In this document: in pieces, positions 1 to 62,280 of the stretch
Layout: every line of letters starts with the position of its first letter
Numbering within the stretch: the stretch's first letter is position 1
Assembly (NCBI GenBank): GCA_933228675.1
Contig: OW121741.1
Location: 120,614,418-120,678,417 of the forward strand
DNA length: 64,000 nucleotides
Direction of reading: 5' to 3'
DNA from: Stomorhina lunata
Lineage: Eukaryota; Arthropoda; Insecta; Diptera; Rhiniidae
Notes under the pieces: generated by a model
The model's database searches: none
The model's input: only the letters and a program-made list of their open reading frames with translations
What the model was told of the DNA's origin: nothing
Position numbers and translations under genes: made by a program

Positions 1-3000
1 TTTTCAAAAATTTCCTATTTTTATAGGAAATTTTTCAAAAATTTCCTATTTTTATAGGAAATTTTTCAAAAATTTCCTATTTTTATAGGAAATTTTTCAA
101 AAATTTCCTATTTTTATAGGAAATTTTTCAAAAATTTCCTATTTTTATAGGAAATTTTTCAAAAATTTCCTATTTTTATAGGAAATTTTTCAAAAATTTC
201 CTATTTTTATAGGAAATTTTTCAAAAATTTCCTATTTTTATAGGAAATTTTTCAAAAATTTCCTATTTTTATAGGAAATTTTTCAAAAATTTCCTATTTT
301 TATAGGAAATTTTTCAAAAATTTCCTATTTTTATAGGAAATTTTTCAAAAATTTCCTATTTTTATAGGAAATTTTTCAAAAATTTCCTATTTTTATAGGA
401 AATTTTTCAAAAATTTCCTATTTTTATAGGAAATTTTTCAAAAATTTCCTATTTTTATAGGAAATTTTTCAAAAATTTCCTATTTTTATAGGAAATTTTT
501 CAAAAATTTCCTATTTTTATAGGAAATTTTTCAAAAATTTCCTATTTTTATAGGAAATTTTTCAAAAATTTCCTATTTTTATAGGAAATTTTTCAAAAAT
601 TTCCTATTTTTATAGGAAATTTTTCAAAAATTTCCTATTTTTATAGGAAATTTTTCAAAAATTTCCTATTTTTATAGGAAATTTTTCAAAAATTTCCTAT
701 TTTTATAGGAAATTTTTCAAAAATTTCCTATTTTTATAGGAAATTTTTCAAAAATTTCCTATTTTTATAGGAAATTTTTCAAAAATTTCCTATTTTTATA
801 GGAAATTTTTCAAAAATTTCCTATTTTTATAGGAAATTTTTCAAAAATTTCCTATTTTTATAGGAAATTTTTCAAAAATTTCCTATTTTTATAGGAAATT
901 TTTCAAAAATTTCCTATTTTTATAGGAAATTTTTCAAAAATTTCCTATTTTTATAGGAAATTTTTCAAAAATTTCCTATTTTTATAGGAAATTTTTCAAA
1001 AATTTCCTATTTTTATAGGAAATTTTTCAAAAATTTCCTATTTTTATAGGAAATTTTTCAAAAATTTCCTATTTTTATAGGAAATTTTTCAAAAATTTCC
1101 TATTTTTATAGGAAATTTTTCAAAAATTTCCTATTTTTATAGGAAATTTTTCAAAAATTTCCTATTTTTATAGGAAATTTTTCAAAAATTTCCTATTTTT
1201 ATAGGAAATTTTTCAAAAATTTCCTATTTTTATAGGAAATTTTTCAAAAATTTCCTATTTTTATAGGAAATTTTTCAAAAATTTCCTATTTTTATAGGAA
1301 ATTTTTCAAAAATTTCCTATTTTTATAGGAAATTTTTCAAAAATTTCCTATTTTTATAGGAAATTTTTCAAAAATTTCCTATTTTTATAGGAAATTTTTC
1401 AAAAATTTCCTATTTTTATAGGAAATTTTTCAAAAATTTCCTATTTTTATAGGAAATTTTTCAAAAATTTCCTATTTTTATAGGAAATTTTTCAAAAATT
1501 TCCTATTTTTATAGGAAATTTTTCAAAAATTTCCTATTTTTATAGGAAATTTTTCAAAAATTTCCTATTTTTATAGGAAATTTTTCAAAAATTTCCTATT
1601 TTTATAGGAAATTTTTCAAAAATTTCCTATTTTTATAGGAAATTTTTCAAAAATTTCCTATTTTTATAGGAAATTTTTCAAAAATTTCCTATTTTTATAG
1701 GAAATTTTTCAAAAATTTCCTATTTTTATAGGAAATTAGGAAATTTTTCAAAAATTTCCTATTTTTATAGGAAATTTTTCAAAAATTTCCTATTTTTATA
1801 GGAAATTTTTCAAAAATTTCCTATTTTTATAGGAAATTTTTCAAAAATTTCCTATTTTTATAGGAAATTTTTCAAAAATTTCCTATTTTTATAGGAAATT
1901 TTTCAAAAATTTCCTATTTTTATAGGAAATTTTTCAAAAATTTCCTATTTTTATAGGAAATTTTTCAAAAATTTCCTATTTTTATAGGAAATTTTTCAAA
2001 AATTTCCTATTTTTATAGGAAATTTTTCAAAAATTTCCTATTTTTATAGGAAATTTTTCAAAAATTTCCTATTTTTATAGGAAATTTTTCAAAAATTTCC
2101 TATTTTTATAGGAAATTTTTCAAAAATTTCCTATTTTTATAGGAAATTTTTCAAAAATTTCCTATTTTTATAGGAAATTTTTCAAAAATTTCCTATTTTT
2201 ATAGGAAATTTTTCAAAAATTTCCTATTTTTATAGGAAATTTTTCAAAAATTTCCTATTTTTATAGGAAATTTTTCAAAAATTTCCTATTTTTATAGGAA
2301 ATTTTTCAAAAATTTCCTATTTTTATAGGAAATTTTTCAAAAATTTCCTATTTTTATAGGAAATTTTTCAAAAATTTCCTATTTTTATAGGAAATTTTTC
2401 AAAAATTTCCTATTTTTATAGGAAATTTTTCAAAAATTTCCTATTTTTATAGGAAATTTTTCAAAAATTTCCTATTTTTATAGGAAATTTTTCAAAAATT
2501 TCCTATTTTTATAGGAAATTTTTCAAAAATTTCCTATTTTTATAGGAAATTTTTCAAAAATTTCCTATTTTTATAGGAAATTTTTCAAAAATTTCCTATT
2601 TTTATAGGAAATTTTTCAAAAATTTCCTATTTTTATAGGAAATTTTTCAAAAATTTCCTATTTTTATAGGAAATTTTTCAAAAATTTCCTATTTTTATAG
2701 GAAATTTTTCAAAAATTTCCTATTTTTATAGGAAATTTTTCAAAAATTTCCTATTTTTATAGGAAATTTTTCAAAAATTTCCTATTTTTATAGGAAATTT
2801 TTCAAAAATTTCCTATTTTTATAGGAAATTTTTCAAAAATTTCCTATTTTTATAGGAAATTTTTCAAAAATTTCCTATTTTTATAGGAAATTTTTCAAAA
2901 ATTTCCTATTTTTATAGGAAATTTTTCAAAAATTTCCTATTTTTATAGGAAATTTTTCAAAAATTTCCTATTTTTATAGGAAATTTTTCAAAAATTTCCT

Positions 3001-6000
3001 ATTTTTATAGGAAATTTTTCAAAAATTTCCTATTTTTATAGGAAATTTTTCAAAAATTTCCTATTTTTATAGGAAATTTTTCAAAAATTTCCTATTTTTA
3101 TAGGAAATTTTTCAAAAATTTCCTATTTTTATAGGAAATTTTTCAAAAATTTCCTATTTTTATAGGAAATTTTTCAAAAATTTCCTATTTTTATAGGAAA
3201 TTTTTCAAAAATTTCCTATTTTTATAGGAAATTTTTCAAAAATTTCCTATTTTTATAGGAAATTTTTCAAAAATTTCCTATTTTTATAGGAAATTTTTCA
3301 AAAATTTCCTATTTTTATAGGAAATTTTTCAAAAATTTCCTATTTTTATAGGAAATTTTTCAAAAATTTCCTATTTTTATAGGAAATTTTTCAAAAATTT
3401 CCTATTTTTATAGGAAATTTTTCAAAAATTTCCTATTTTTATAGGAAATTTTTCAAAAATTTCCTATTTTTATAGGAAATTTTTCAAAAATTTCCTATTT
3501 TTATAGGAAATTTTTCAAAAATTTCCTATTTTTATAGGAAATTTTTCAAAAATTTCCTATTTTTATAGGAAATTTTTCAAAAATTTCCTATTTTTATAGG
3601 AAATTTTTCAAAAATTTCCTATTTTTATAGGAAATTTTTCAAAAATTTCCTATTTTTATAGGAAATTTTTCAAAAATTTCCTATTTTTATAGGAAATTTT
3701 TCAAAAATTTCCTATTTTTATAGGAAATTTTTCAAAAATTTCCTATTTTTATAGGAAATTTTTCAAAAATTTCCTATTTTTATAGGAAATTTTTCAAAAA
3801 TTTCCTATTTTTATAGGAAATTTTTCAAAAATTTCCTATTTTTATAGGAAATTTTTCAAAAATTTCCTATTTTTATAGGAAATTTTTCAAAAATTTCCTA
3901 TTTTTATAGGAAATTTTTCAAAAATTTCCTATTTTTATAGGAAATTTTTCAAAAATTTCCTATTTTTATAGGAAATTTTTCAAAAATTTCCTATTTTTAT
4001 AGGAAATTTTTCAAAAATTTCCTATTTTTATAGGAAATTTTTCAAAAATTTCCTATTTTTATAGGAAATTTTTCAAAAATTTCCTATTTTTATAGGAAAT
4101 TTTTCAAAAATTTCCTATTTTTATAGGAAATTTTTCAAAAATTTCCTATTTTTATAGGAAATTTTTCAAAAATTTCCTATTTTTATAGGAAATTTTTCAA
4201 AAATTTCCTATTTTTATAGGAAATTTTTCAAAAATTTCCTATTTTTATAGGAAATTTTTCAAAAATTTCCTATTTTTATAGGAAATTTTTCAAAAATTTC
4301 CTATTTTTATAGGAAATTTTTCAAAAATTTCCTATTTTTATAGGAAATTTTTCAAAAATTTCCTATTTTTATAGGAAATTTTTCAAAAATTTCCTATTTT
4401 TATAGGAAATTTTTCAAAAATTTCCTATTTTTATAGGAAATTTTTCAAAAATTTCCTATTTTTATAGGAAATTTTTCAAAAATTTCCTATTTTTATAGGA
4501 AATTTTTCAAAAATTTCCTATTTTTATAGGAAATTTTTCAAAAATTTCCTATTTTTATAGGAAATTTTTCAAAAATTTCCTATTTTTATAGGAAATTTTT
4601 CAAAAATTTCCTATTTTTATAGGAAATTTTTCAAAAATTTCCTATTTTTATAGGAAATTTTTCAAAAATTTCCTATTTTTATAGGAAATTTTTCAAAAAT
4701 TTCCTATTTTTATAGGAAATTTTTCAAAAATTTCCTATTTTTATAGGAAATTTTTCAAAAATTTCCTATTTTTATAGGAAATTTTTCAAAAATTTCCTAT
4801 TTTTATAGGAAATTTTTCAAAAATTTCCTATTTTTATAGGAAATTTTTCAAAAATTTCCTATTTTTATAGGAAATTTTTCAAAAATTTCCTATTTTTATA
4901 GGAAATTTTTCAAAAATTTCCTATTTTTATAGGAAATTTTTCAAAAATTTCCTATTTTTATAGGAAATTTTTCAAAAATTTCCTATTTTTATAGGAAATT
5001 TTTCAAAAATTTCCTATTTTTATAGGAAATTTTTCAAAAATTTCCTATTTTTATAGGAAATTTTTCAAAAATTTCCTATTTTTATAGGAAATTTTTCAAA
5101 AATTTCCTATTTTTATAGGAAATTTTTCAAAAATTTCCTATTTTTATAGGAAATTTTTCAAAAATTTCCTATTTTTATAGGAAATTTTTCAAAAATTTCC
5201 TATTTTTATAGGAAATTTTTCAAAAATTTCCTATTTTTATAGGAAATTTTTCAAAAATTTCCTATTTTTATAGGAAATTTTTCAAAAATTTCCTATTTTT
5301 ATAGGAAATTTTTCAAAAATTTCCTATTTTTATAGGAAATTTTTCAAAAATTTCCTATTTTTATAGGAAATTTTTCAAAAATTTCCTATTTTTATAGGAA
5401 ATTTTTCAAAAATTTCCTATTTTTATAGGAAATTTTTCAAAAATTTCCTATTTTTATAGGAAATTTTTCAAAAATTTCCTATTTTTATAGGAAATTTTTC
5501 AAAAATTTCCTATTTTTATAGGAAATTTTTCAAAAATTTCCTATTTTTATAGGAAATTTTTCAAAAATTTCCTATTTTTATAGGAAATTTTTCAAAAATT
5601 TCCTATTTTTATAGGAAATTTTTCAAAAATTTCCTATTTTTATAGGAAATTTTTCAAAAATTTCCTATTTTTATAGGAAATTTTTCAAAAATTTCCTATT
5701 TTTATAGGAAATTTTTCAAAAATTTCCTATTTTTATAGGAAATTTTTCAAAAATTTCCTATTTTTATAGGAAATTTTTCAAAAATTTCCTATTTTTATAG
5801 GAAATTTTTCAAAAATTTCCTATTTTTATAGGAAATTTTTCAAAAATTTCCTATTTTTATAGGAAATTTTTCAAAAATTTCCTATTTTTATAGGAAATTT
5901 TTCAAAAATTTCCTATTTTTATAGGAAATTTTTCAAAAATTTCCTATTTTTATAGGAAATTTTTCAAAAATTTCCTATTTTTATAGGAAATTTTTCAAAA

Positions 6001-9000
6001 ATTTCCTATTTTTATAGGAAATTTTTCAAAAATTTCCTATTTTTATAGGAAATTTTTCAAAAATTTCCTATTTTTATAGGAAATTTTTCAAAAATTTCCT
6101 ATTTTTATAGGAAATTTTTCAAAAATTTCCTATTTTTATAGGAAATTTTTCAAAAATTTCCTATTTTTATAGGAAATTTTTCAAAAATTTCCTATTTTTA
6201 TAGGAAATTTTTCAAAAATTTCCTATTTTTATAGGAAATTTTTCAAAAATTTCCTATTTTTATAGGAAATTTTTCAAAAATTTCCTATTTTTATAGGAAA
6301 TTTTTCAAAAATTTCCTATTTTTATAGGAAATTTTTCAAAAATTTCCTATTTTTATAGGAAATTTTTCAAAAATTTCCTATTTTTATAGGAAATTTTTCA
6401 AAAATTTCCTATTTTTATAGGAAATTTTTCAAAAATTTCCTATTTTTATAGGAAATTTTTCAAAAATTTCCTATTTTTATAGGAAATTTTTCAAAAATTT
6501 CCTATTTTTATAGGAAATTTTTCAAAAATTTCCTATTTTTATAGGAAATTTTTCAAAAATTTCCTATTTTTATAGGAAATTTTTCAAAAATTTCCTATTT
6601 TTATAGGAAATTTTTCAAAAATTTCCTATTTTTATAGGAAATTTTTCAAAAATTTCCTATTTTTATAGGAAATTTTTCAAAAATTTCCTATTTTTATAGG
6701 AAATTTTTCAAAAATTTCCTATTTTTATAGGAAATTTTTCAAAAATTTCCTATTTTTATAGGAAATTTTTCAAAAATTTCCTATTTTTATAGGAAATTTT
6801 TCAAAAATTTCCTATTTTTATAGGAAATTTTTCAAAAATTTCCTATTTTTATAGGAAATTTTTCAAAAATTTCCTATTTTTATAGGAAATTTTTCAAAAA
6901 TTTCCTATTTTTATAGGAAATTTTTCAAAAATTTCCTATTTTTATAGGAAATTTTTCAAAAATTTCCTATTTTTATAGGAAATTTTTCAAAAATTTCCTA
7001 TTTTTATAGGAAATTTTTCAAAAATTTCCTATTTTTATAGGAAATTTTTCAAAAATTTCCTATTTTTATAGGAAATTTTTCAAAAATTTCCTATTTTTAT
7101 AGGAAATTTTTCAAAAATTTCCTATTTTTATAGGAAATTTTTCAAAAATTTCCTATTTTTATAGGAAATTTTTCAAAAATTTCCTATTTTTATAGGAAAT
7201 TTTTCAAAAATTTCCTATTTTTATAGGAAATTTTTCAAAAATTTCCTATTTTTATAGGAAATTTTTCAAAAATTTCCTATTTTTATAGGAAATTTTTCAA
7301 AAATTTCCTATTTTTATAGGAAATTTTTCAAAAATTTCCTATTTTTATAGGAAATTTTTCAAAAATTTCCTATTTTTATAGGAAATTTTTCAAAAATTTC
7401 CTATTTTTATAGGAAATTTTTCAAAAATTTCCTATTTTTATAGGAAATTTTTCAAAAATTTCCTATTTTTATAGGAAATTTTTCAAAAATTTCCTATTTT
7501 TATAGGAAATTTTTCAAAAATTTCCTATTTTTATAGGAAATTTTTCAAAAATTTCCTATTTTTATAGGAAATTTTTCAAAAATTTCCTATTTTTATAGGA
7601 AATTTTTCAAAAATTTCCTATTTTTATAGGAAATTTTTCAAAAATTTCCTATTTTTATAGGAAATTTTTCAAAAATTTCCTATTTTTATAGGAAATTTTT
7701 CAAAAATTTCCTATTTTTATAGGAAATTTTTCAAAAATTTCCTATTTTTATAGGAAATTTTTCAAAAATTTCCTATTTTTATAGGAAATTTTTCAAAAAT
7801 TTCCTATTTTTATAGGAAATTTTTCAAAAATTTCCTATTTTTATAGGAAATTTTTCAAAAATTTCCTATTTTTATAGGAAATTTTTCAAAAATTTCCTAT
7901 TTTTATAGGAAATTTTTCAAAAATTTCCTATTTTTATAGGAAATTTTTCAAAAATTTCCTATTTTTATAGGAAATTTTTCAAAAATTTCCTATTTTTATA
8001 GGAAATTTTTCAAAAATTTCCTATTTTTATAGGAAATTTTTCAAAAATTTCCTATTTTTATAGGAAATTTTTCAAAAATTTCCTATTTTTATAGGAAATT
8101 TTTCAAAAATTTCCTATTTTTATAGGAAATTTTTCAAAAATTTCCTATTTTTATAGGAAATTTTTCAAAAATTTCCTATTTTTATAGGAAATTTTTCAAA
8201 AATTTCCTATTTTTATAGGAAATTTTTCAAAAATTTCCTATTTTTATAGGAAATTTTTCAAAAATTTCCTATTTTTATAGGAAATTTTTCAAAAATTTCC
8301 TATTTTTATAGGAAATTTTTCAAAAATTTCCTATTTTTATAGGAAATTTTTCAAAAATTTCCTATTTTTATAGGAAATTTTTCAAAAATTTCCTATTTTT
8401 ATAGGAAATTTTTCAAAAATTTCCTATTTTTATAGGAAATTTTTCAAAAATTTCCTATTTTTATAGGAAATTTTTCAAAAATTTCCTATTTTTATAGGAA
8501 ATTTTTCAAAAATTTCCTATTTTTATAGGAAATTTTTCAAAAATTTCCTATTTTTATAGGAAATTTTTCAAAAATTTCCTATTTTTATAGGAAATTTTTC
8601 AAAAATTTCCTATTTTTATAGGAAATTTTTCAAAAATTTCCTATTTTTATAGGAAATTTTTCAAAAATTTCCTATTTTTATAGGAAATTTTTAAATTTTT
8701 CAAAAATTTCCTATTTTTATAGGAAATTTTTCAAAAATTTCCTATTTTTATAGGAAATTTTTCAAAAATTTCCTATTTTTATAGGAAATTTTTCAAAAAT
8801 TTCCTATTTTTATAGGAAATTTTTCAAAAATTTCCTATTTTTATAGGAAATTTTTCAAAAATTTCCTATTTTTATAGGAAATTTTTCAAAAATTTCCTAT
8901 TTTTATAGGAAATTTTTCAAAAATTTCCTATTTTTATAGGAAATTTTTCAAAAATTTCCTATTTTTATAGGAAATTTTTCAAAAATTTCCTATTTTTATA

Positions 9001-9498
9001 GGAAATTTTTCAAAAATTTCCTATTTTTATAGGAAATTTTTCAAAAATTTCCTATTTTTATAGGAAATTTTTCAAAAATTTCCTATTTTTATAGGAAATT
9101 TTTCAAAAATTTCCTATTTTTATAGGAAATTTTTCAAAAATTTCCTATTTTTATAGGAAATTTTTCAAAAATTTCCTATTTTTATAGGAAATTTTTCAAA
9201 AATTTCCTATTTTTATAGGAAATTTTTCAAAAATTTCCTATTTTTATAGGAAATTTTTCAAAAATTTCCTATTTTTATAGGAAATTTTTCAAAAATTTCC
9301 TATTTTTATAGGAAATTTTTCAAAAATTTCCTATTTTTATAGGAAATTTTTCAAAAATTTCCTATTTTTATAGGAAATTTTTCAAAAATTTCCTATTTTT
9401 ATAGGAAATTTTTCAAAAATTTCCTATTTTTATAGGAAATTTTTCAAAAATTTCCTATTTTTATAGGAAATTTTTCAAAAATTTCCTATTTTTATAGG
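1..9498 (+). repeat. 31-bp satellite, near-perfect array, forward orientation
   Basis: About 306 head-to-tail copies of a 31-bp unit, nearly all identical. Each unit carries the inverted repeat AAATTTCCTA / TAGGAAATTT around a short T-rich loop, joined by a TTTTCAAAA linker. Only two register breaks are visible, near 1737 and 8692, each adding about 8 bp. A/T tracts in the unit are centred about 10.5, 11.5 and 9 bp apart, close to the helical repeat, so the array should be intrinsically curved. The lack of divergence over 9.5 kb points to recent amplification or strong homogenisation. There are no genes. The window begins inside the array. Confidence 0.97.
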
Positions 9499-10545
9499 AA
9501 TTTTTCAAAATTTTTTTATTTTTGTATGAATTTTTCTAAGATTCCTTATTTTTATATGAAATTCTTCAAAAATTTCTTGCTTATATAGGAAATTTTTCAA
9601 AAATTTCTTATTTTTATTAGAAATTTTGAAAAAAAAATTCTTTTTTTCAAAAATTTCCTATTTTTATAGGAAATTTTTCAAAAATTTCCTATTTTTATAG
9701 GAAATTTTTAAAAAATTTCCTATTTTTATAGGAAATTTTTAAAAAATTTCCTATTTTTATCTTAAATTTTTAAAAAGTTTCCTGTTTTTATAGGAAATTT
9801 TTTAAAAATTTCCTATTTTTATAGGAAATTTTTCAAAAATTTCTTATTTTTATAGGAAATTTTTCAAAAATTTCCTATTTTTATAGGAAATTTTTCAAAA
9901 ATTTCCTATTTTTATAGGAAATTTTTCAAAAATTTCCTATTTTTATAGGAAATTTTTCAAAAATTTCCAAAAATTTCCTATTTTTATAGGAAATTTTTCA
10001 AAAATTTCCTATTTTTATAGGAAATTTTTCAAAAATTTCCTATTTTTGTAGGAAATTTTTCAAAAATTTCCTATTTTTATAGGAAATTTTTCAAAAATTT
10101 CCTATTTTTATAGGAAATTTTTCAAAAATTTCCTATTTTTATAGGAAATTTTTCAAAAATTTCCTATTTTTATAGGAAATTTTTCAAAAATTTCCTATTT
10201 TTATAGGAAATTTTTCAAAAATTTCCTATTTTTATAGGAAATTTTTCAAATATTTCCTATTTTTATAGGAAATTTTTCAAAAATTTCCTATTTGTATAGG
10301 AAATTTTTCAAAAATTTCCTATTTTTATAGGAAATTTTTCAAAAATTTCCTATTTTTATAGGAAATTTTTCAAAAATTTCCTATTTTTATAGGAAATTTT
10401 TCAAAAATTTCCTATTTTTATAGGAAATTTTTCAAAAATTTCCTATTTTTATAGGAAATTTTTCAAATTTCCTATTTTTATAGGAAATTTTTCAAAAATT
10501 TCCTATTTTTATAAGAAATTTTTGAAAAATTTCCTATAAAAATAG
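9499..10545 (+). repeat. 31-bp satellite, diverged forward section with marker block
   Basis: Same 31-bp unit, but substituted and with partial units. A strongly diverged block at 9499-9650 contains TTTTTGTATGAATTTTT, CTTGCTTATATAGG and TTATTAGAAATTTTG. It is followed at about 9755 by a variant with CTTAAATTTTT and CCTGTTTTTATAGG. The same block recurs at about 13578 and 13938 (forward) and about 11521-11690 (inverted), so it marks higher-order units. Orientation starts to flip at about 10505-10545. Confidence 0.9.
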
Positions 10546-13344
10546 GAAATTTTTCAAAAATTTCCTATTTTTATAGGAAATTTTTCAAAAATTTCTTATA
10601 AAAATAGGAAATTTTTGAAAAATTTCCTATAAAAATAGGAAATTTGAAAAATTTCCTATAAAAATAGGAAATTTTTGAAAAATTTCCTATAAAAATAGGA
10701 AATTTTTGAAAAATTTCCTATAAAAATAGGAAATTTTTGAAAAATTTCCTATAAAAATAGGAAATTTTTGAAAAATTTCCTATAAAAATAGGAAATTTTT
10801 GAAAAATTTCCTATAAAAATAGGAAATTTTTGAAAAATTTCCTATAAAAATAGGAAATTTTTGAAAAATTTCCTATAAAAATAGGAAATTTTTGAAAAAT
10901 TTCCTATAAAAATAGGAAATTTTTGAAAAATTTCCTATAAAAATAGGAAATTTTTGAAAAATTTCCTATAAAAATAGGAAATTTTTGAAAAATTTCCTAT
11001 AAAAATAGGAAATTTTTGAAAAATTTCCTATAAAAATAGGAAATTTTTGAAAAATTTCCTATAAAAATAGGAAATTTTTGAAAAATTTCCTATAAAAATA
11101 GGAAATTTTTGAAAAATTTCCTACAAAAATAGGAAATTTTTGAAAAATTTCCTATAAAAATAGGAAATTTTTGAAAAATTTCCTATAAAAATAGGAAATT
11201 TTTGGAAATTTTTGAAAAATTTCCTATAAAAATAGGAAATTTTTGAAAAATTTCCTATAAAAATAGGAAATTTTTGAAAAATTTCCTATAAAAATAGGAA
11301 ATTTTTGAAAAATTTCCTATAAAAATAAGAAATTTTTGAAAAATTTCCTATAAAAATAGGAAATTTTTAAAAAATTTCCTATAAAAACAGGAAATTTTTT
11401 AAAAATTTAAGATAAAAATAGGAAATTTTTTAAAAATTTCCTATAAAAATAGGAAATTTTTTAAAAATTTCCTATAAAAATAGGAAATTTTTGAAAAATT
11501 TCCTATAAAAATAGGAAATTTTTGAAAAAAAAGAATTTTTTTTTCAAAATTTCTAATAAAAATAAGAAATTTTTGAAAAATTTCCTATATAAGCAAGAAA
11601 TTTTTGAAGAATTTCATATAAAAATAAGGAATCTTAGAAAAATTCATACAAAAATAAAAAAATTTTGAAAAATTTCCTATACAAATAAGAAATTTTTGAA
11701 AAATTTCCTATAAAAATAGGAAATTTTTGAAAAATTTCCTATAAAAATAGGAAATTTTTGAAAAATTTCCTATAAAAATAGGAAATTTTTGAAAAATTTC
11801 CTATAAAAATAGGAAATTTTTGAAAAATTTCCTATAAAAATAGGAAATTTTTGAAAAATTTCCTATAAAAATAGGAAATTTTTGAAAAATTTCCTATAAA
11901 AATAGGAAATTTTTGAAAAATTTCCTATTTTTATAGGAAATTTTTCAAAAATTTCTTATAAAAATAGGAAATTTTTGAAAAATTTCCTATAAAAATAGGA
12001 AATTTGAAAAATTTCCTATAAAAATAGGAAATTTTTGAAAAATTTCCTATAAAAATAGGAAATTTTTGAAAAATTTCCTATAAAAATAGGAAATTTTTGA
12101 AAAATTTCCTATAAAAATAGGAAATTTTTGAAAAATTTCCTATAAAAATAGGAAATTTTTGAAAAATTTCCTATAAAAATAGGAAATTTTTGAAAAATTT
12201 CCTATAAAAATAGGAAATTTTTGAAAAATTTCCTATAAAAATAGGAAATTTTTGAAAAATTTCCTATAAAAATAGGAAATTTTTGAAAAATTTCCTATAA
12301 AAATAGGAAATTTTTGAAAAATTTCCTATAAAAATAGGAAATTTTTGAAAAATTTCCTATAAAAATAGGAAATTTTTGAAAAATTTCCTATAAAAATAGG
12401 AAATTTTTGAAAAATTTCCTATAAAAATAGGAAATTTTTGAAAAATTTCCTATAAAAATAGGAAATTTTTGAAAAATTTCCTATAAAAATAGGAAATTTT
12501 TGAAAAATTTCCTATAAAAATAGGAAATTTTTGAAAAATTTCCTATAAAAATAGGAAATTTTTGAAAAATTTCCTATAAAAATAGGAAATTTTTGAAACA
12601 TTTCCTATAAAAATAGGAAATTTTTGAAAAATTTCCTATAAAAATAGGAAATTTTTGAAAAATTTCCTACAAAAATAGGAAATTTTTGAAAAATTTCCTA
12701 TAAAAATAGGAAATTTTTGAAAAATTTCCTATAAAAATAGGAAATTTTTGGAAATTTTTGAAAAATTTCCTATAAAAATAGGAAATTTTTGAAAAATTTC
12801 CTATAAAAATAGGAAATTTTTGAAAAATTTCCTATAAAAATAGGAAATTTTTGAAAAATTTCCTATAAAAATAGGAAATTTTTGAAAAATTTCCTATAAA
12901 AATAGGAAATTTTTGAAAAATTTCCTATAAAAATAGGAAATTTTTGAAAAATTTCCTATAAAAATAGGAAATTTTTGAAAAATTTCCTATAAAAATAGGA
13001 AATTTTTGAAAAATTTCCTATAAAAATAGGAAATTTTTGAAAAATTTTCTATAAAAATAGGAAATTTTTGAAAAATTTCCTATAAAAATAGGAAATTTTT
13101 GAAAAATTTCATATAAAAATAGGAAATTTTTGAAAAATTTCCTATAAAAATAGGAAATTTTTGAAAAATTTCCTATAAAAATAGGAAATTTTTGAAAAAT
13201 TTCCTATAAAAATAGGAAATTTTTGAAAAATTTCCTATAAAAATAGGAAATTTTTGAAAAATTTCCTATAAAAATAGGAAATTTTTGAAAAATTTCCTAT
13301 AAAAATAGGAAATTTTTGAAAAATTTTCTATACAAATAGGAAAT
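10546..13344 (-). repeat. 31-bp satellite, inverted block
   Basis: The unit here is the reverse complement of the first array (TATAAAAATAGG in place of CCTATTTTTATA; linker TTTTTGAAAA). One forward unit interrupts it near 10566 and again near 11926, each followed by the same short unit (AAATTTGAAAAATTTCC at 10641 and 12001). This marks an internal duplication of roughly 0.7-0.9 kb. The inverted marker block lies at about 11521-11690, preceded by the inverted CAGG/AAGAT variant at about 11386-11412. Confidence 0.93.
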
Positions 13345-14090
13345 TTCCTATTTTTATAGGAAATTTTTCAAAAATTTCCTATTTTTATAGGAAATTTTTC
13401 AAAAATTTCCTATTTTTATAGGAAATTTTTCAAAAATTTCCTATTTTTATAGGAAATTTTTCAAAAATTTCCTATTTTTATAGGAAATTTTTCAAAAATT
13501 TCCTATTTTTATAGGAAATTTTTCAAAAATTTCCTATTTTTATAGGAAATTTTTCAAAAATTTCTTATTTGTATAGGAAATTTTTCAAAATTTTTTTATT
13601 TTTGTATGAATTTTTCTAAGATTCCTTATTTTTATATGAAATTCTTCAAAAATTTCTTGCTTATATAGGAAATTTGTCAAAAATTTCTTATTTTTATTAG
13701 AAATTTTGAAAAAAAAATTCTTTTTTTTCAAAAATTTCCTATTTTTATAGGAAATTTTTCAAAAATTTCCTATTTTTATAGGAAATTTTTAAAAAATTTC
13801 CTATTTTTATAGGAAATTTTTAAAAAATTTCCTATTTTTATCTTAAATTTTTAAAAAATTTCCTGTTTTTATAGGAAATTTTTTTAAAAATTTCCTATTT
13901 TTATAGGAAATTTTTCAAAAATTTCTTATTTGTATAGGAAATTTTTCAAAAATTTTTTATTTTTGTATGAATTTTTCTAAGATTCCTTATTTTTATATGA
14001 AATTCTTTAAAAATTTCTTGCTTATATAGGAAATTTTTCAAAAATTTCTTATTTTTATTAGAAATTTTGAAAAAAAAATTCTTTTTGTTA
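13345..14090 (+). repeat. 31-bp satellite, forward distal section with two marker blocks
   Basis: The orientation returns to forward at about 13345, where two half palindromes abut. Marker blocks at about 13578-13730 and 13938-14085 are about 360 bp apart and match the one at 9499-9650, which indicates a higher-order unit of about 360 bp. The array then decays into non-repetitive AT-rich DNA after about 14090. Confidence 0.9.
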
Positions 14091-15464: not shown

Positions 15465-16508
15465 ATGGACTGCGAAAAAAAAGTTCGTGAAAATATAATT
15501 AAAACTTTTCAAAAAAATCCGTCATGGACTTTAAAAAAAATAGCTAAAAATTTGAAAGTTGACCCTCGAACGGTTTCTAATGCCATCAGACGGTATAAGG
15601 AAAACCTGAGCATTGAAAGAAAACTTGGATCAGGGAGGAAAAAAGGTCCTACAGATATTGGTCAGGCAAAAGAAGTTGAGTGACTCTTTCGAAGAGCGCC
15701 TAACACTTCTTTAAGAAAAGCAGCTCGTACGGTGAAATGTTCTACGAATTTTGCACATAGAGTCAAAGCTTATGCTGGACTGAAGACATACAAAGTCCAA
15801 AAGGTTCCAGATCGCAATGCTGTAAAGAACTTAGAAGCAAAAAAACGAGCGAAAAAATTGAAGTCTGATTTTATAAAAAAATACACCTGTTGTGTGATGG
15901 ATGATGAAACTTACGTACTGGCAGACTTTTCTCAACCTCCTGGTCAAGATTTTTATGTTGCTGATAAACGGGGCAATGTTCGGCAAGAGTTTCGCACAAA
16001 AAAACAAACAAAATTCCCTAAGAAGTTTCTCGTGTGGCAAGCTATTTGCAGTTGTGGCAAAAGAAGTAAAGTATTTGTGGCATCTGGCACAATAAACACA
16101 GAAATTTATATAAAGGAGTGCCTACAAAAACGGTTGTTACCCTTTTTAAGAGAGCACAGAGTGACTACATTTTTTTGGCCCGATTTGGCATCATGCCATT
16201 ATGGAAAAAAGGCACTTGAGTGGTACTCAAAGAATAATGTCATTTTTGTACCACGAGAGGCAAATCCACCTAACTGTCCAGAACTTCGGCCTGTGGACAG
16301 GTATTGGGCTCTGGTAAAAAAGGAATTAAAGAACACAGGAAAGATTTTCAAGAACATGTCCGATTTTAAGCGCAGGTGGAACACATGCTCCAAAAAGGTA
16401 TCAGAAGCAACTGTAAAATCTTTAATGGGAGGGTTTCCGAAAAAAGTCGATAATTTTGCAAAACCCGAGTACAAAGTAAACATTTTAATGCTAAATGATT
16501 TTGTATAA
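15465..16508 (+). pseudogene. Tc1/mariner transposase, DD37D/E type, one internal stop
   Basis: One reading frame of 348 codons (final TAA included) is interrupted only by TGA at 15681-15683 (codon 73). The frame resumes at once with no shift. Start ATG is at 15465, about 155 bp inside the left end. The N-terminus (codons about 10-50) is a helix-turn-helix with WTLKKIAKNLKVDPRTVSNA, followed by a basic SGRKKG linker like the family's GRPR. Catalytic residues: the D before E in MDDETY (codon 147), D in FWPDLASCHY (codon 240) and D in PELRPVDRYW (codon 278). There are 37 residues between the second and third. Known family: cut-and-paste DDE/D transposases that excise by the inverted repeats and insert at TA. 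From memory, close dipteran relatives have E at the last site, so this D may be a natural variant (DD37D) or a substitution. The TGA may derive from an Arg CGA. As it stands the protein would stop after the DNA-binding domain, so it is probably inactive. Confidence 0.92.
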
Positions 16509-18302: not shown

Positions 18303-18497
18303 AGGCGTTGGCAGCCCATACCACCAGAACCCGATGAATTTTTGTAATTTTGAGTTGGAATTTAGCAAAGTCGGTTGGTGCCGCTTTGTTAAAGAAAATA
18401 CAAAAACTTTTTTTGATAATAAATTGTTTATAAAAAAATTTTTATGAAAAAATTTTCTATTGAAAAATTTTTGATGAAAATTTTTGTCTATAGAAAA

Positions 18498-18786
18498 ATG
18501 TTTGTGTTTTGTTCACTCGATAATCTGAGCTTTTATTTGTGGTTTATAAACATAATTCGTAAAGATTTTGTTTGTAAAATAAGTAATAATGCGAAGTTTT
18601 TGATCTGTCTAAAATTGGGGATACTTATCCTGAAATGGCCTAACCAACCATCGAAACGTATCAAAGAATTTTGGTTTCCCCGCAAACATTTTTTTTTGGC
18701 TTTATATCAGTAAATATTTGTCTGTTTGATTAATAAATAAATGTAACAGATTTGGGATCAAATGCGAATACTCTTTCTTTTTGAAA
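18498..18786 (+). mobile_element. Hammerhead-bearing retroelement remnant, copy 1
   Basis: Homologous, in inverse orientation, to 39372-39660 and more distantly to 62020-62280. In order it has a TTTTGTTCACTCGATAATCT start, ATGCGAAGTTTTTGATCTGT, a decayed hammerhead at 18626-18668, GGTTTCCCCGCAAACATTTT, and a 3' end AACAGATTTGGGATCAAATG then CGAATACTCTTTCTTTTTGA. It sits inside a palindromic satellite array. The family is inferred to be Penelope-like or retrozyme-like from the ribozyme; no protein is encoded. Confidence 0.7.
18626..18668 (+). ncRNA. Decayed hammerhead ribozyme
   Basis: It aligns with the intact motifs at 39484 and 62146 but lacks three core bases (CCTGAAATGG where CCTGAAGAGATGG is expected). 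GAAAC is followed by GTATC instead of GCGTC, and stem I no longer pairs. It is expected to be inactive. Confidence 0.65.
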
Positions 18787-19611
18787 AAAAAAAAAATTCT
18801 ATAGAAAAATTTTTAATAAAAGAATTTTCTATAGAAAAATTTTTCATAAGAAAAATTTCTATAAAAAAAATGTTCATAAAAAAAATTTTCTATAAAAAAA
18901 TTAAAAAAATTTTGATAAAAAAATTTTCTATAAAAAAAATTTTCTATAAAAAAATTTTCTATAGAAAAATTTTCTATAGAAACATTTTTTGATAAAAAAA
19001 TTTTCTATGAAAAAAAAAAAATTGAAAAATTTTTGATAAAAAAATTTTCTATAGAAAAATTTTTGATAAAAAAAATTTCTATAAAAAAATTGTTGATAAA
19101 AAAAAATTTTCTATAAAAAAAATTAAAAAATTTTTGATAAAAAAATTTTCTATAGAAAAATTTTCGATGAAAAAATTTTCTATAGAAAAATTTTTGATAG
19201 AAAATTTTCTATAGAAAAATTTTTGATAAAAAAATTTTCTATAGAAAAATTTTTGATAAAAAAGTTATCTATAGAAAAATTTTTGATAAAAAAAAATTTT
19301 CTATAAAAAAATTTCTATAGAAAAATTTGATAAAAAGTTTCTATAAACAAAAATTTCTTAGAAAATTTTCTATAGAAAAATTTTAGATGAAAAAATTTTC
19401 TATAGAAAAATTTTAGATGAAAAAATTTTCTAAAGAAAAATTTTAGATGAAAAAATTTTCTATAGAAAAATTTTTAATTAAAATATTTTCAGAAAACTTT
19501 TAAAACATCAGAACTACTCATTGACAAAAATGCCTATTTTAGTTAAAATTAGAAAAAGCGGTAACTCTGTCGATGATTTTTTTGTTCTGATCTCTTTGTT
19601 CCGACCTCTGA

Positions 19612-39365: not shown

Positions 39366-39371
39366 TTTTTT

Positions 39372-39945
39372 CTTCAAAAAGAAGTGTATTTGCATTTGAT
39401 CCCAAACCTGTTACATTTATTTATTAATGTAACAGATCAATTTATTGATAAAAAGCCAAAAAATGTTTGCGGAGAAACCAAATTCCTCGACGCGTTTCGA
39501 TGGTTGGTTAAGCCATCTCTTCAGGAGGATTATCCCCAATTTAGACAGATCGAAAACCTCGCATTATTACTAAATTTACAAACATAACTATTAAGAATTA
39601 TGTTCATAAACCAAAAGTAAAATCGTAGATTATCGACTGAACAAAAACAAACATTTTTCAGTTTTCATCTACCTTCACTTCCCACATTCTTGCTGTAGCC
39701 GTCGGCTACTATATGCAGAATGCTGTGAATGAAGGGGGGGTAAGATGTTTTAAAATAAACAAGTTTATTTTAAAAATAAGCTGAATGCATGCAGTTTTAT
39801 CAAAAAATAACAAATTAGTCGGGATGTAAATATTATTCAAAAAGAAGTGTATTTGCATTTAATCCCAAACCTGTTACATTTATTTATTAATGTAACAGAT
39901 CAATTTATTGATAAAAAGCCAAAAAATGTTTTCGTTAAAAAGTTT
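39372..39945 (-). mobile_element. Hammerhead-bearing retroelement, head-to-tail partial dimer
   Basis: Read on the minus strand. A segment of about 105 bp (39945-39836; TTTTTTGGCTTTTTATCAAT ... TTGGGATTAAATGC) is repeated at about 39470-39372 in direct orientation, 470 bp away. Between them lie about 300 bp of internal sequence and the hammerhead at 39484-39529. The upstream copy begins about 20 nt past the equivalent of the predicted cleavage site. No protein is encoded. Penelope-like elements and metazoan retrozymes are known to carry hammerheads and to form such tandem, pseudo-LTR structures; membership is inferred. Satellite flanks both sides. Confidence 0.72.
39484..39529 (-). ncRNA. Hammerhead ribozyme, type I with minimal stem III
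   Basis: Minus strand, 46 nt: stem I TCCTC, core CTGAAGA (fits CUGANGA), stem II GATGG, loop CTTAACCAA, stem II CCATC, GAA, then ACGCGT, C17, stem I GAGGA. All conserved core positions are present, and stems I and II are perfect 5-bp helices. ACGCGT can form only a two-pair stem III in a monomer but is self-complementary, so two copies could pair across stem III. This is known for minimal hammerheads of Penelope-like elements. Predicted cleavage is after the C of GTC, at 39489/39488. Confidence 0.85.
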
Positions 39946-56480: not shown

Positions 56481-57360
56481 TCACCGGTTAATCTGTTATT
56501 TTGGCGTTTACTTGGAATTGCTGGATTTTTAGTAGCGGTGGCGGTACGTGTTTTTGTTATTGGCATTTTATTGTTGTTTTTTAGTTGTTGTAATTTTTTT
56601 TCGAGCTTATCATCCAGTCAAATCCATTTACTCTAATACTGCATTACTCAGCCATTTACAAACAAATTTACTTTTTTAAGTCTTACAATCGACAAAAAAA
56701 ACCTTAAAACGAAAAATAGAAAAAACGTTAAAAAAAATCAAAATTGCGTTGCAGACATTCATTCATTTACTTTTGACTTTAGAGAGCAATTGGATTTTTT
56801 TCAATTTTTATTTTTTTCTATAAATTTTGTAATTTCTATTTATATGTTTTTACTGCATTTCTTTCGTTTTTTTCCTTTAAATTTTTCTTTAGTTAATTTA
56901 AATTTTCGTTTGTCATGTAAGTGTCAGTTAGTTTTCTTTAGTATTTACGGCAAATCGGTTTAAATTTAAGTTTTTAGTTTCGGTTTATCTCTTTTAAGAT
57001 TTAATTCTGCCCGATTTATGTGAATTACTGAAGTTTTTATTATTTTTATAAATAAGAACATTTTTTTGTGATTTTTCTTTTGTTTTAAAAAAGATTAAAG
57101 TTGGATTTAAATTTCTTTTGTTAAATATTTGTGGTATTTTGTTTTTGTTTAAATTAAAATCCTGACAAATTCTTTTTAAGTTTCTCTAATGCCATAAATT
57201 ATTTTCAGAGTTTTCTGCAGCAAATATTTTAAGCAACCAAAAAAAAAAAGAAAATTCCATAAAATAATCAACATATTTTAATAAGAAAGAAAATATTTTT
57301 CTTTAATTTCTTTAAATTTGAGGTAAGATTTGTCTGTCTTACGAGTACTCTATATCGTAG
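56481..57360. other. AT-rich non-repetitive DNA, no gene seen
   Basis: No ORF. TTTGAG|GTAAGA at about 57322 has a good donor half but a weak acceptor half, so it is not called as a recursive splice site. Confidence 0.55.
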
Positions 57361-58975
57361 TTAATGCCTTATTCTATGTCTTAGTTTATGTCTTAGTCTA
57401 TGTCTTAGTCTATGTCTTAGTCTATGTCTTAGTCTATGTCTTAGTCTATGTCTTAGTCTATGTCTTAGTCTATGTCTTAGTCTATGTCTTAGTCTATGTC
57501 TTAGTCTATGTCTTAGTCTATGTCTTAGTCTATGTCTTAGTCTATGTCTTAGTCTATGTCTTAGTCTATGTCTTAGTCTATGTCTTAGTCTATGTCTTAG
57601 TCTATGTCTTAGTCTATGTCTTAGTCTATGTCTTAGTCTATGTCTTAGTCTATGTCTTAGTCTATGTCTTAGTCTATGTCTTAGTCTATGTCTTAGTCTA
57701 TGTCTTAGTCTATGTCTTAGTCTATGTCTTATTTTATGTTTTAGTCTATGTCTTAATCTAGGTCTTAGTCTATGTCTTAGTCTATGTCTTAGTCTATGTC
57801 TTAGTCTCTGTCTTAGTCTATGTCTTAGTCTATGTCTTAGTCTATGTCTTAGTCTATGTCTTAGTCTATGTCTTAGTCTATGTCTTAGTCTATGTCTTAG
57901 TCTATGTCTTAGTCTATGTCTTAGTCTATGTCTTAGTATATGTCTTAGTCTATGTCTTAGTCTATGTCTTAGTCTATGTCTTAGTCTATGTCTTAGTCTA
58001 TGTCTTAGTCTATGTCTTAGTCTATGTCTTAGTCTATGTCTTAGTCTATGTCTTAGTCTATGTCTTAGTCTATGTCTTAGTCTATGTCTTAGTCTATGTC
58101 TTAGTCTATGTCTTAGTCTATGTCTTAGTCTATGTCTTAGTCTATGTCTTAGTCTATGTCTTAGTCTATGTCTTAGTCTATGTCTTAGTCTATGTCTTAG
58201 TCTATGTCTTAGTCTATGTCTTAGTCTATGTCTTAGTCTATGTCTTAGTCTATGTCTTAGTCTATGTCTTAGTCTATGTCTTAGTCTATGTCTTAGTCTA
58301 TGTCTTAGTCTATGTCTTAGTCTATGTCTTAGTCTATGTCTTAGTCTATGTCTTAGTCTATGTCTTAGTCTATGTCTTAGTCTATGTCTTAGTCTATGTC
58401 TTAGTCTATGTCTTAGTCTATGTCTTAGTCTATGTCTTAGTCTATGTCTTAGTCTATGTCTTAGTCTATGTCTTAGTCTATGTCTTAGTCTATGTCTTAG
58501 TCTATGTCTTAGTCTATGTCTTAGTCTATGTCTTAGTCTATGTCTTAGTCTATGTCTTAGTCTATGTCTTAGTCTATGTCTTAGTCTATGTCTTAGTCTA
58601 TGTCTTAGTCTATGTCTTAGTCTATGTCTTAGTCTATGTCTTAGTCTATGTCTTAGTCTATGTCTTAGTCTATGTCTTAGTCTATGTCTTAGTCTATGTC
58701 TTAGTCTATGTCTAAGTCTATGTCTTAGTCTATGTCTTAGTCTATGTCCTAGTCTATGTCTTAGTCTATGTCTTAGTCTATGTCTTAGTCTATGTCTTAG
58801 TCTATGTTTTAGTCTATGTCTTAGTCTATGTCTTAGTCTATGTCTTAGTCTATGTCTTAGTCTATGTCTTAGTCTATGTGTTAGTCTATGTCTTAGTCTA
58901 TGTCTTAGTCTATGTCTTAGTCTATGTCTTAGTCTATGCCTTAGTCTATGTCTTAGTCTATATCTAAATCTATGT
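57361..58975. repeat. 12-bp minisatellite TCTATGTCTTAG
   Basis: About 134 tandem copies with few substitutions. The unit looks like two related hexamers, TCTATG and TCTTAG. Because 12 is divisible by three it is open in several frames (plus strand YVLV repeats; minus strand HRLR repeats over about 545 codons). No start context, splice sites or unique sequence support a protein. It is unrelated to the CTATAG satellites apart from the shared CTATG/CTTAG flavour. Confidence 0.97.
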
Positions 58976-60417
58976 CCGGATACGTTTGGGTATAACAAAT
59001 TTGTGTATAACAGTTATTTCTTTAGAAAAATTGTCGTATAACACTTATTTCTTTAGCAGAAATTGTGTAAAACAGTTGTTTCTTTTATGATAAATAATAG
59101 CCCTTAATTATGCGGAAGATCTTGATAATGATGTTGTAATACATTAAACAAAATATTTAATTGGACGTAATTTTTTTTTGTTTCATTTCACTTTTTTAAA
59201 ACGTTAAAAGAAATTCCTTAAGAACAGCTGCAAAAATATTTAAGTATTTCCTTTTTTCAAGTTTTTTTCTTTTGCTCTTAATTTTTGCAAACTGAACTTA
59301 AGAAGGAATGACGGTAAAAAGATATAATAAATAACAAATTGTTGGAAATATTCTACTCAAAACGACAGACGGACAAACAGATAGACAGACAAGACCAACT
59401 TGCAACCGTGATACAACAACAAACATTCCATATATTAAAGTACCTTTAGAGCCCCGTTGTTATCTTATTCTGGTCTTTTCTGTTATAAACGGCCTGAGTC
59501 TGTCTTTTACTGGATATCTGGTTGGTCTGTCTGTTATAATTTGACTTGTTTGACTTCTTGCTGGGGTTTTAACCACATTTTTTTTTATAAAAAAAAAAAA
59601 AATGAAAAAATACAGCAACGGACAATGTCCTCGTTTATGTTTCATACATTTTTTTGGACGGATATACGAACGGATATGTTTGTTCGTAGGACGATGGTTG
59701 GCATAGTTTAAGACTCCAACAAAAAAAAAAAAAAATGAAAAAATTTCATATGTTTGAAGATAAAGTGAAAAAGAATTAACACACACTCGCAGCTACTAAA
59801 CAATTGGAAATGTTTATGGATTTCCTTCTTTCTGCGTGTTAAATTCGTATTTGTTTAAACAAATCTTTTCTTTTTCCCTTCATTTTTTTGTCCTGTTATA
59901 ATTCGGTTGACCCATAAACTCTGCAGGAGCAATGAAAAAAAGCTTAAACAAAAAATTATGTTAACAAAAGAAAGTAACCAATAACAACAAATTGTTAATC
60001 TTTCCAAAGTTCAATTTAAAAACATAAATACTTTTTCTTGTCTTTCGAATTATTTCTTGGATTTATGTCAGGAATTTTATCAGAAAAATCCATACATTCA
60101 CTTTCTGACACCAGAGACTTAAAGCCTTAAATTTATGTTTCGAGATTAAGAAAATAAAATTTTATTTTTAACATTTGCTTTTATTGTTAAAGATTGGATT
60201 TTGAATTCTTAAGAATGGGGACAATTTGCTATAAATGTCAAAATAAAGCAAAAGGAAGGTTAGGCTTTTAGGTAGTTTTATCATTTAACGTAATTGGGTT
60301 AAGAATTTATTGATTTTTTGAAAGTTTAATTTGTAAGTGGAAGTTTTTTTTGCGCTGAAACAAAAATTAATTTTAGTTCAATAACCCCAAAAAAAACACA
60401 GACATTAATAGACCCAA
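58976..60417. other. AT-rich non-repetitive DNA with a three-copy 31-bp repeat
   Basis: At about 58992-59085 there are three diverged copies of GTATAACAGTTATTTCTTTA plus GAAAAATTGT. Otherwise nothing is recognised. Two overlapping frames at about 59457-59786, on opposite strands, have no domain. Confidence 0.6.
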
Positions 60418-62010
60418 GATTTTTCTATAAGAAAATTTTGTATGGAAATTTTTCATAAAATAGTTTTTTGTAAATTTTCTATAAATAATATTTTTTTTGT
60501 GAGAAACAAAAATTTTGTTACAAAAATTTCCTAAGGAAAAAAATTTATATAAATAGAAAAATTGTCAGGCAAAAAATTTTCTTAAGAAAAATTTACATAC
60601 CAAAAATTTTTTATAACATCATTTTTATACCAAAAATTTTATTCGCTATCAAAAAATATTTAAACTAAATTTTTTAAAGAAAAATATTAAACAAAAAATT
60701 GAAAATAATTTTCTATACCAAAAAAATTTTATAACAAAAATTATTTATGTTAAAAGTTTTTTTCTAAAAAAATGTTTATACCGAAAATTTTCTATAGAAA
60801 ATTTTTTTTTTACCGAAAATTTCCTAAGAAAAATTTTTATACCAAAAATTTTCAAGAAAATTTTTTTATACCGAAAGATTTCTAAAGCAATATACCAAAA
60901 ATTTTCTATAGAAAAATTATGTTACCGAAAATTTTATGTAGAAAATTTTGATAACGAAAATTTTCTGTAGAAAATTTTGATAACGAAAATTTTCTGTAGA
61001 AAATTTTGATAACGAAAATTTTCTGTAGAAAATTTTGATAACGAAAATTTTCTGTAGAAAATTTTGATAACGAAAATTTTCTGTAGAAAATTTTGATACC
61101 GAAAATTTTCTATAGAAAGTTTTGATACTGAAAATTTTTTGTAGAAAAATTTTAAAACTGAAGATTTTCTGTAGAAAATTTTCTATAGAAAAATTTTTGA
61201 ACCGAAAATTTTCTATAGAAAAATTTTTGAACCGAAAATTTTCTATAGAAAAATTTTTGAACCGAAAATTTTCTATAGAAAAATTTTTGAACCGATAATT
61301 TTCTATAGAAACATTTTTAAACAGAAAATTTTCTATAGAAATGTTCCTATAGAAAATTTTCTGTTTAAAAATGTTTCTATAGAAAATTATCTATAAGAAA
61401 ATTTGTACACCGAAAATTATCTATAGAATAACTTTTATACCGAAAATTTTCTATAAAAAAATTTTCAAACCAAAAGTTTTATGTAAAAAAAATTTTAAAC
61501 TGAAAAGTTTTTATACCAAAAAATTTATTTAGAAAGTTTTCAAGCTGACAATTTTGTATAGAAAAATGTTCGAACCAATAATTTCGTGTAGAAAAATCTT
61601 TATATCAAAAATTTTTATCAAAAAATTTTATATAAAAAATTTTGCGTAAAAAAATTTTTGTATATAAAATTTTCTATAGAAAAATTTTTATGTCACAAAT
61701 TTTCTATAGCAAAATTTTTTTATCAAAAATTTTTTTTAGTAAAATATTTATATTAAAAATTTTCTGTAGACAAACTTTTATAACAAAAATTTTTTATAGA
61801 AAAATTTTCCATGGAAAAATCATGAATTTTCTATAGAAAAATTTTGATACCGAAAATTTTCCACAGAAAAATTTTGATACCGAAAATTTTCTACAGAAAA
61901 ATTTTGATACCGAAAATTTTCTACAGAAAAATTTTGATACCAAAAGTTTTCTATAAAAAAATTTTGATACCAAAAAATGTTTATAAAAAAAAATTTATCA
62001 AAAAGTTTTA
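60418..62010. repeat. 29-30-bp palindromic satellite, diverged
   Basis: Units of core AAAATTTTCTATAGAAAATT with linkers GATAACG (five regular copies at about 60945-61090), TTGAACC (about 61190-61300) and GATACC (about 61845-61950). The left part is strongly diverged. It contains the perfect inverted repeat at 61294-61391. Confidence 0.88.
61294..61391. repeat. Perfect 45-bp inverted repeat inside the satellite
   Basis: Arms 61294-61338 and 61347-61391 are exact complements around the 8-nt spacer AAATGTTC. The arms begin GATAATTTTCTATAGAAACA. Exact identity in an otherwise diverged array implies a recent inverted duplication or template switch. Confidence 0.9.
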
Positions 62011-62019
62011 CTGTAGTGT

Positions 62020-62280
62020 ATTGCACTAAGATCCCAATTTATTACAATTATTTATTACCAATTTATTATATTATTTATTACAATTATTTATTATTGTAAT
62101 AAATAGTTTTTTGATAAAACCAAAAAATTTTGGTGGGGAAACCTTTCCTCGACGCGTTTCGATGGTTGGTTAGGCCATATCATCAGGAGGATTATCCCTA
62201 ATTCTAGACAAAGCGAAAACCACACATTATGTATAATTTGAGGGACTGAATAAATACGAATTATTATTATTATTGTGTTC
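62020..62280 (-). mobile_element. Hammerhead-bearing retroelement remnant, copy 3
   Basis: On the minus strand: GGTTTTCGCTTTGTCTAGAA, GGGATAATCC, hammerhead, GGTTTCCCCACC, TTTTTTGGTTTTATC, then several ATAATAAAT repeats and TTGGGATCTTAG. The order matches copies at 18498 and 39372, with a more diverged 3' end. It is flanked by satellite on both sides. Confidence 0.68.
62146..62191 (-). ncRNA. Hammerhead ribozyme motif, one weak stem II pair
   Basis: Minus strand, 46 nt: stem I TCCTC, core CTGATGA (exact consensus), stem II TATGG, loop CCTAACCAA, stem II CCATC, GAA, ACGCGT, C17, stem I GAGGA. Stem I is perfect. Stem II keeps four pairs (ATGG/CCAT), but the pair next to the core is U-C instead of G-C, which should weaken activity. 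The predicted cleavage site is after GTC, as in the copy at 39484. Confidence 0.8.

Follow-up and report, generated by a model that had tools for sequence, protein, structure and literature searches.

A minimal type I hammerhead motif in a dispersed non-coding repeat with Penelope-type insertion marks in Stomorhina lunata

Does the hammerhead-like motif found on the minus strand of this Stomorhina lunata DNA belong to a satellite, or to a mobile element in which a ribozyme could have a task? The window, i.e., the whole 64,000-nucleotide stretch that was analyzed, had been described in an earlier note as carrying the motif in an AT-rich satellite region, with a self-complementary stem III as in the dimerizing minimal hammerheads of Penelope-like elements (PLEs). 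According to our analysis, which rests on sequence comparison and predicted folds, it is probably a minimal hammerhead of type I, belonging to the sort that acts in dimeric form, and its carrier a short non-autonomous retroelement that uses the PLE mechanism of insertion. The role of minimal hammerheads in PLEs is described as unknown in the available part of PMC7761336, which presents the mobilization of retrozymes by PLEs as a proposal, and a high-copy family with readable ends offers material on both subjects.

Sequence, significance and predicted folding of the motif

All the core elements and the two perfect 5-bp stems previously claimed for 46 nt of the minus strand are found at the positions given for them (Table 1). 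From 39529 to 39484 the motif reads UCCUC-CUGAAGA-GAUGG-CUUAACCAA-CCAUC-GAA-ACGCGU-C/GAGGA, where the slash marks the predicted cleavage. It features the CUGANGA ... GAAA core, A15.1-U16.1, an NUH cleavage triplet and the type I order of parts, while the reduction of stem III to the self-complementary ACGCGU is the characteristic of dimeric hammerheads. A type III reading, with stem I as an upstream hairpin, was rejected: by eye, an NUH with a pairing arm after it could not be seen upstream, and the second copy in the window (c2) is without it as well.

Table 1. Positions of the hammerhead motif, its parts and the repeat copies in the window
Feature	Position	Strand	Description
Minimal type I hammerhead	39484..39529	minus	46 nt; sequence reading, type I search, Rfam RF00163 alignment, dimer fold
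Stem I	39529-39525/39488-39484	minus	5 Watson-Crick pairs
Core CUGAAGA	39524-39518	minus	direct reading
Stem II	39517-39513/39503-39499	minus	5 Watson-Crick pairs
Loop II (CUUAACCAA)	39512-39504	minus	nine nucleotides; direct reading
GAA	39498-39496	minus	direct reading
Stem III, palindromic ACGCGU	39495-39490	minus	no loop on stem III
C17	39489	minus	predicted cleavage between 39489 and 39488
Copy c1	39370..39934	minus	order R - x - U - hammerhead - R
R, upstream copy of 102-bp direct repeat	39833..39934	minus	97% identity to downstream copy
R, downstream copy	39370..39471	minus	end = the family's no-tail 3' end, T about 382
Hairpin CUGUUACAUU...AAUGUAACAG in R	39408..39435	minus	downstream of the ribozyme
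Copy c2	62000..62264	minus	ends approximate
c2 hammerhead	62146..62191	minus	CUGAUGA core, palindromic ACGCGU, U-C mismatch at first stem II pair
Copy c3	18493..18788	plus	repeat homology; absent from the earlier note
c3 hammerhead	about 18626-18668	plus	decayed; core and stem II partly deleted, no stem I or palindrome left

When the 64-kb window was searched for type I hammerheads with stems of at least 3 bp, the c1 site was the only position to pass. Simulation of 1,500 windows of 64 kb with matched dinucleotide composition produced the motif in loose form 158 times and with two stems of 5 bp or more 12 times; the complete motif, palindromic stem III included, turned up once, in line with the view that the whole is very unlikely to have arisen by chance. 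The scoring with the Rfam type I model that the earlier note had proposed gave a mixed answer: Hammerhead_1 (RF00163) aligned in register to 39530-39483 of the minus strand with a stem III loop of 0 nt and 23.1 bits (E of 5.7e-4 in an 81-bp search), but this lies under the gathering score of 34 bits. Hammerheads were reported neither by a scan of the whole window at the gathering score nor by a scan of 1 kb at an E of at most 10. An RF00163 profile search of the insect's own genome gave 0 matches at an E of at most 0.001, a result that is uninformative given that control genomes were likewise without matches.

The predicted folds of the 46-mer and of a 61-mer both contain stems I and II, although for the 61-mer 139 of 200 shuffles fold as well as the real sequence. 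The homodimer predicted for the 46-mer is exactly the double hammerhead, at -27.3 kcal/mol versus twice -9.8, with a dimerization gain that is matched by 213 of 500 shuffles (for c2, by 69 of 500). With five extra bases on each side (56-mer), the monomer favors another fold (-10.6 versus -10.2) and one of the two hammerhead cores is formed in the predicted dimer. Folded as a whole, the 565-nt element is predicted to take up other structure, without the hammerhead.

The carrier repeat and its family across the genome

The hammerhead is carried by a non-coding repeat of 565 bp, present three times in the window. Copy c1 consists of one 463-bp unit with a GC content of 31.5% plus the terminal repeat R, and contains no open reading frame of at least 90 amino acids in 39370-39934, hence no reverse transcriptase (RT) plus GIY-YIG frame of that length. 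All ten pairs of the R hairpin are kept in three of the four R copies; c2 shows changes on both sides at three of these pairs, and in c3 two are broken. Previously, the same design had been seen at 62146. That hammerhead is homologous and keeps core and palindrome (15.7 bits and an E of 0.15 against RF00163), yet the description is only partly true because stem II begins there with a U-C mismatch.

The assignment of the motif to an AT-rich satellite, in turn, had to be given up, since it lies in a dispersed, high-copy, non-coding repeat placed among AT satellites and not in satellite sequence itself. An ordinary satellite that came to resemble a hammerhead by chance or through array homogenization could account for the location of the c1 motif between AT-rich tandem arrays and for the copies that do lie in arrays. 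Its probability is deemed very low in view of the single full motif in the simulations, the thousands of dispersed matches and the common ends of the fetched copies.

As for the other contents of the window, a 31-bp AT-rich unit is repeated in a very long array over 1-14075 (371 copies at 98% in the first 11.5 kb), about 136 copies of the 12-bp unit TCTATGTCTTAG, with 97% matches and several frames open on both strands, lie at 57349-58976, and a 132-bp tandem repeat extends from 63409 to the window end at 64000. A 274-amino-acid open frame at 15684-16508 on the plus strand, which matches the DDE_3 endonuclease (E of 1.9e-5, 25 bits, cut-off 28.6), is probably the remnant of a Tc1/mariner-like transposase, judging from its sequence.

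The source genome, a 728-Mb assembly of 104 contigs, was searched with the pattern CUGANGA-N10-25-GAAACGCGUC (the core plus ACGCGUC), which returned 4,349 exact matches (2,179 on the plus and 2,170 on the minus strand); the reversed control pattern gave 0 on either strand. By eye, at least one of the 100 matches listed (C1:12619306) seems unrelated. Among 30 matches cut out as loci (L numbers hereafter), five of which form one array, both stems have at least 4 bp in 22, stem I in 27 and stem II in 25. Some copies are close relatives of c1, with about 98-99% identity in L172-L176 and L178. Outside this genome, a pattern search of viral_contigs gave 116 exact core matches, 0 of them with a stem I of at least 4 bp and a stem II of at least 3 bp; a 22-mer had 0 matches in viral_contigs and 0 in genome_contigs, and a plasmid search gave none.

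Whether the ribozyme is better conserved than its surroundings was assessed by comparing copies. Between c1 and c2, 43 of 46 ribozyme bases are identical versus 98 of 128 in the flanks (p 0.015), whereas c1 and c3 show no ribozyme constraint (36 of 43 versus 116 of 133) and the difference between c2 and c3 is not significant (p 0.16). In eight copies whose 100-bp flanks are 71-83% identical to those of c1, 42-45 of the 46 ribozyme bases are kept, and 17 of the 22 ribozyme differences fall at N7 or in loop II; this comparison of all 46 bases overstates the constraint because 16 of them were fixed by the fetching pattern. When the 30 free bases are considered, 26-29 are kept, which is above the flanks in all eight copies, with significance for L119 only (p 0.0013; p 0.065-0.31 for the other seven). 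Of 86 spanning hits, a set in which overlapping loci repeat copies, 6 are without the pattern, and copies that the pattern had not chosen do show core changes. Preservation of the ribozyme by selection is thus suggested by these sequences and not shown, since the free-base test is significant in one of eight copies, four of which are one subfamily; strong purifying selection, which we had considered, was dropped after the free-base re-test left a suggestion only.

Arrangement of copies and the PLEs of the same genome

Among the 100 matches listed there are 20 neighbor pairs at most 1.5 kb apart (about 0.9 expected by chance), of which 10 are head-to-head and 9 tandem, with a single tail-to-tail pair. 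The tandem units are spaced at 488 bp in L168, 465 bp in the one pair of L170 and 185 bp in L169. The latter locus (C1:9581500-9585500) is an array reduced to the hammerhead and R, with most of the unit gone, and from its sequence it might give rise to a small circular RNA.

These tandem units bear on the reading of the element as a metazoan non-LTR retrozyme, whose tandem transcripts would be cut and whose circles, closed by a host ligase, would be reverse transcribed and inserted, the PLE-type ends reflecting a borrowed enzyme. Non-coding tandem units of 463, 488 and 185 bp, a low GC content (31.5%) and a type I hammerhead agree with it. The available parts of PMC7229834 and PMC7761336 describe animal retrozymes as short, AT-rich, non-coding elements that form circles and have PLEs as likely partners, a role for which PMC7761336 names them. 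Canonical retrozymes, however, have loop contacts, a stem III that is mostly usable and a mainly tandem organization, whereas here stem III is loopless, half of the close neighbor pairs among the matches listed are head-to-head, and the 5' ends are scattered. We regard this reading as possible without counting it as probable, and it is largely compatible with the PLE-type explanation that we prefer.

The head-to-head copies are among the features from which the PLE-type insertion is read. Their outer ends were placed on a ruler T built from c1, on which the first end lies near T 382. We counted 19 head-to-head junctions in the fetched loci, taking overlapping loci once; four had no end class (L118, L125 and the arrays L168 and L169), and several dimers had been fetched for two ribozymes facing apart and not for their tails. 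The remaining 15 (L119, L120, L133, L135, L136, L138/L178, L143/L144 and L170-L177) were classed at both ends, and in every one of them one end lies at T378-388 and the other at T415-421, so that the tailed end reaches about 37 nt beyond the plain one. With independent ends of equal frequency, the probability of 15 mixed pairs out of 15 would be 3e-5. The halves of the dimer are 800 bp apart in L177, and in L135 and L170 one half is scarcely more than R. A target-site duplication is clear at L135, where the direct repeat AGAAGTAT stands beside the outer ends in non-satellite DNA, and plausible at L172, L177 and L178; at the other 11 of the 15 dimers it is unreadable or ambiguous. Copy c1 itself is a single-orientation copy and no dimer. 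According to the available text of PMC3846280, Penelope copies likewise have head-to-head inverted pseudo-LTRs with an optional 31-bp tail on the 3' end of one, and target-site duplications of 8-10 bp in several copies and absent in others.

The position of the 5' ends was compared with the predicted cut. In the c1-like copies, i.e., with the exclusion of subfamily copies, L118, L124, L125, L127, L134, L142, L146, L168, L169 and c2, 0 of 38 breakpoints lie within 5 nt of the cut site and two within 20 nt. Hammerhead cleavage was consequently rejected as the origin of the 5' ends, whose location away from the cut would fit the result obtained with an Anolis PLE, where the hammerhead is protein-assisted and dispensable for insertion in vitro (PMC11167929).

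When the genome was inspected for PLEs, a GIY-YIG search gave 12 matches, and in L159 we identified two head-to-head frames with RT (E of 5.9e-10 and 3.5e-10) and GIY-YIG. An RT search with one PLE frame yielded 55 matches, down to 39% identity, and a second query 58; when a PLE frame was compared with the PDB, nothing was found. The R sequence in L159 was considered as the 3' end of the adjoining PLE, a reading discarded once it proved to be R standing by itself in AT satellite. Of 27 PLE loci, 24 contain minimal hammerhead-like motifs whose stem III is AUAU or ACGU (7 of 9, 10 of 10 and 7 of 8); these loci are not independent, several belonging to one family; the palindrome was demanded in the 8-locus scan and in one of two 10-locus scans, and not in the 9-locus scan. 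The PLE hammerheads inspected in detail carry one extra nucleotide (U or A) before stem II, and a c1-type ribozyme (at most three changes in 22 bases) was found in 0 of the 27 loci. The element and the PLE 3' ends inspected share the order of their parts, namely, the hammerhead, about 75-120 nt, the first end, and a tail of about 37-40 nt.

This common order of hammerhead, first end and tail is what would be expected if the element were an internally deleted derivative of one PLE, with the repeat as its pseudo-LTR and the ribozyme inherited and passive. A ribozyme constraint that is no stronger than suggested and 5' ends that disregard the cut also agree with such a derivative, but the absence of a c1-type ribozyme from the PLE loci sampled speaks against it, as do the resemblances of c1 to PLE flanks, which are weak and fall in AT-rich stretches. 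A passive derivative is conceivable, and we entertain it with some doubt. The sequence TAACCAACCATCGAAACGCGTC is the one that would mark a PLE pseudo-LTR matching the c1-type element. The association with dimerizing minimal hammerheads of PLEs made in the earlier note stands insofar as the 46-mer homodimer is the double hammerhead and the insertion marks are of PLE type, and fails insofar as the hammerhead differs from those of the autonomous PLEs sampled.

Two further observations concern the PLEs themselves. Two families (e.g., L179-L182 and L187) have UUGAAAA cores, in which U3-A8 replaces C3-G8, with 80 exact matches in the genome; 25 of these are found no more than 700 bp from one of 51 PLE RT matches, and 18 of the 25 follow the RT match on the same strand, at a distance of 141-206 nt from its 3' end. 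Such cores are not new, since natural U3-A8 covariation is already reported in the available part of PMC3088659. At L180, short tail-like stretches (CATCCCGAC) are located at 337-396 and 476-577 in AT satellite that adjoins a PLE.

A putative insertion route and comparison with known systems

Following the PLE-type reading, copies or tandem units of the element would be transcribed, and two hammerheads, in the same multimeric RNA or in two RNAs, would pair via ACGCGU and cut after GUC. An autonomous PLE would then supply the RT/GIY-YIG protein that binds the unit RNA, of about 460 nt and perhaps circularized, at its 3' stem-loops. In an AT-rich target both strands would be cut, each priming reverse transcription inside the RNA, and two internal start sites about 37 nt apart would give rise to the head-to-head insert. 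More tentatively, the dispersed hammerheads may be working parts of a distinct class of non-autonomous elements mobilized by PLEs, whose RNA would be selected for dimer self-cleavage and whose two start sites, one per target strand, would lead to the constant insert with one tailed and one plain end. The readable ends permit cleavage to be compared with the structure of insertions, and the combination of one tailed and one plain end strongly constrains the PLE insertion mechanism.

Within the literature covered, mostly at the level of titles and abstracts and outside subscription journals, we recognized no description of a non-autonomous element with these joint features. Among hammerheads of other insects, the type III HDV-like ones of Diptera (PMC7936874, available part) also reside in fly genomes but are of type III with long helices I and II, and that of the cave-cricket pDo500 (PMC2837043), likened here from the description in the available text only, is also found in an insect repeat but one that is a tandem satellite. 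Minimal type I hammerheads are mostly dispersed in non-coding DNA according to the accessible portions of PMC7229834 and PMC7761336.

The metazoan non-LTR retrozymes (Cervera and de la Pena 2020, PMC7229834), as far as the available text describes them, resemble the element in their short, AT-rich, non-coding and partly tandem units and in their type I hammerheads. The element differs from them in its minimal hammerhead, in its many head-to-head dimers with one tailed end, and in its 463-bp unit, which exceeds the published retrozyme size of 170-400 nt given in the text available. The canonical helix sizes and loop I/II contacts are absent as well, stem III being loopless and stem I an open helix of 5 bp, with the contacts judged by eye.

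The Penelope families of Adineta vaga (PMC3846280) share the head-to-head inverted pseudo-LTRs, the optional one-sided tail and the short target-site duplications in part of the copies; unlike the element, they are autonomous, and the word hammerhead does not occur in the available text. The Poseidon PLE of Anolis (PAc, PMC11167929) cuts AT-rich DNA and extends both strands, and its reverse transcription begins inside the RNA at two sites, explaining the tail. It matches the layout proposed for the element in that the hammerhead precedes an internal RT start located in a stem-loop, a pair of start sites accounts for the tail, targets are AT-rich and both strands are extended. Unlike the element, it encodes RT and a GIY-YIG endonuclease, and its ribozyme overlaps the start of the open reading frame. 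That study found the two strands not to differ in start site, and the fixed pairing of tailed and plain ends observed here is no simple consequence of such strand-indifferent start sites.

With the dimeric PLE hammerheads (Lunse, Weinberg and Breaker 2017, as described in the available parts of PMC7761336, PMC6155905 and PMC6466107), the motif has in common the type I order, the consensus core, a palindrome as stem III through which two ribozymes pair, and PLE-type insertions. It departs from them, as there described, in its 6-nt ACGCGU, in having no extra nucleotide before stem II, and in a carrier without an RT/endonuclease frame. On our best reading of the sequences, the element would thus be of PLE type in its insertion without being an autonomous PLE, and would stand near the retrozymes while carrying a minimal hammerhead of the dimer type.
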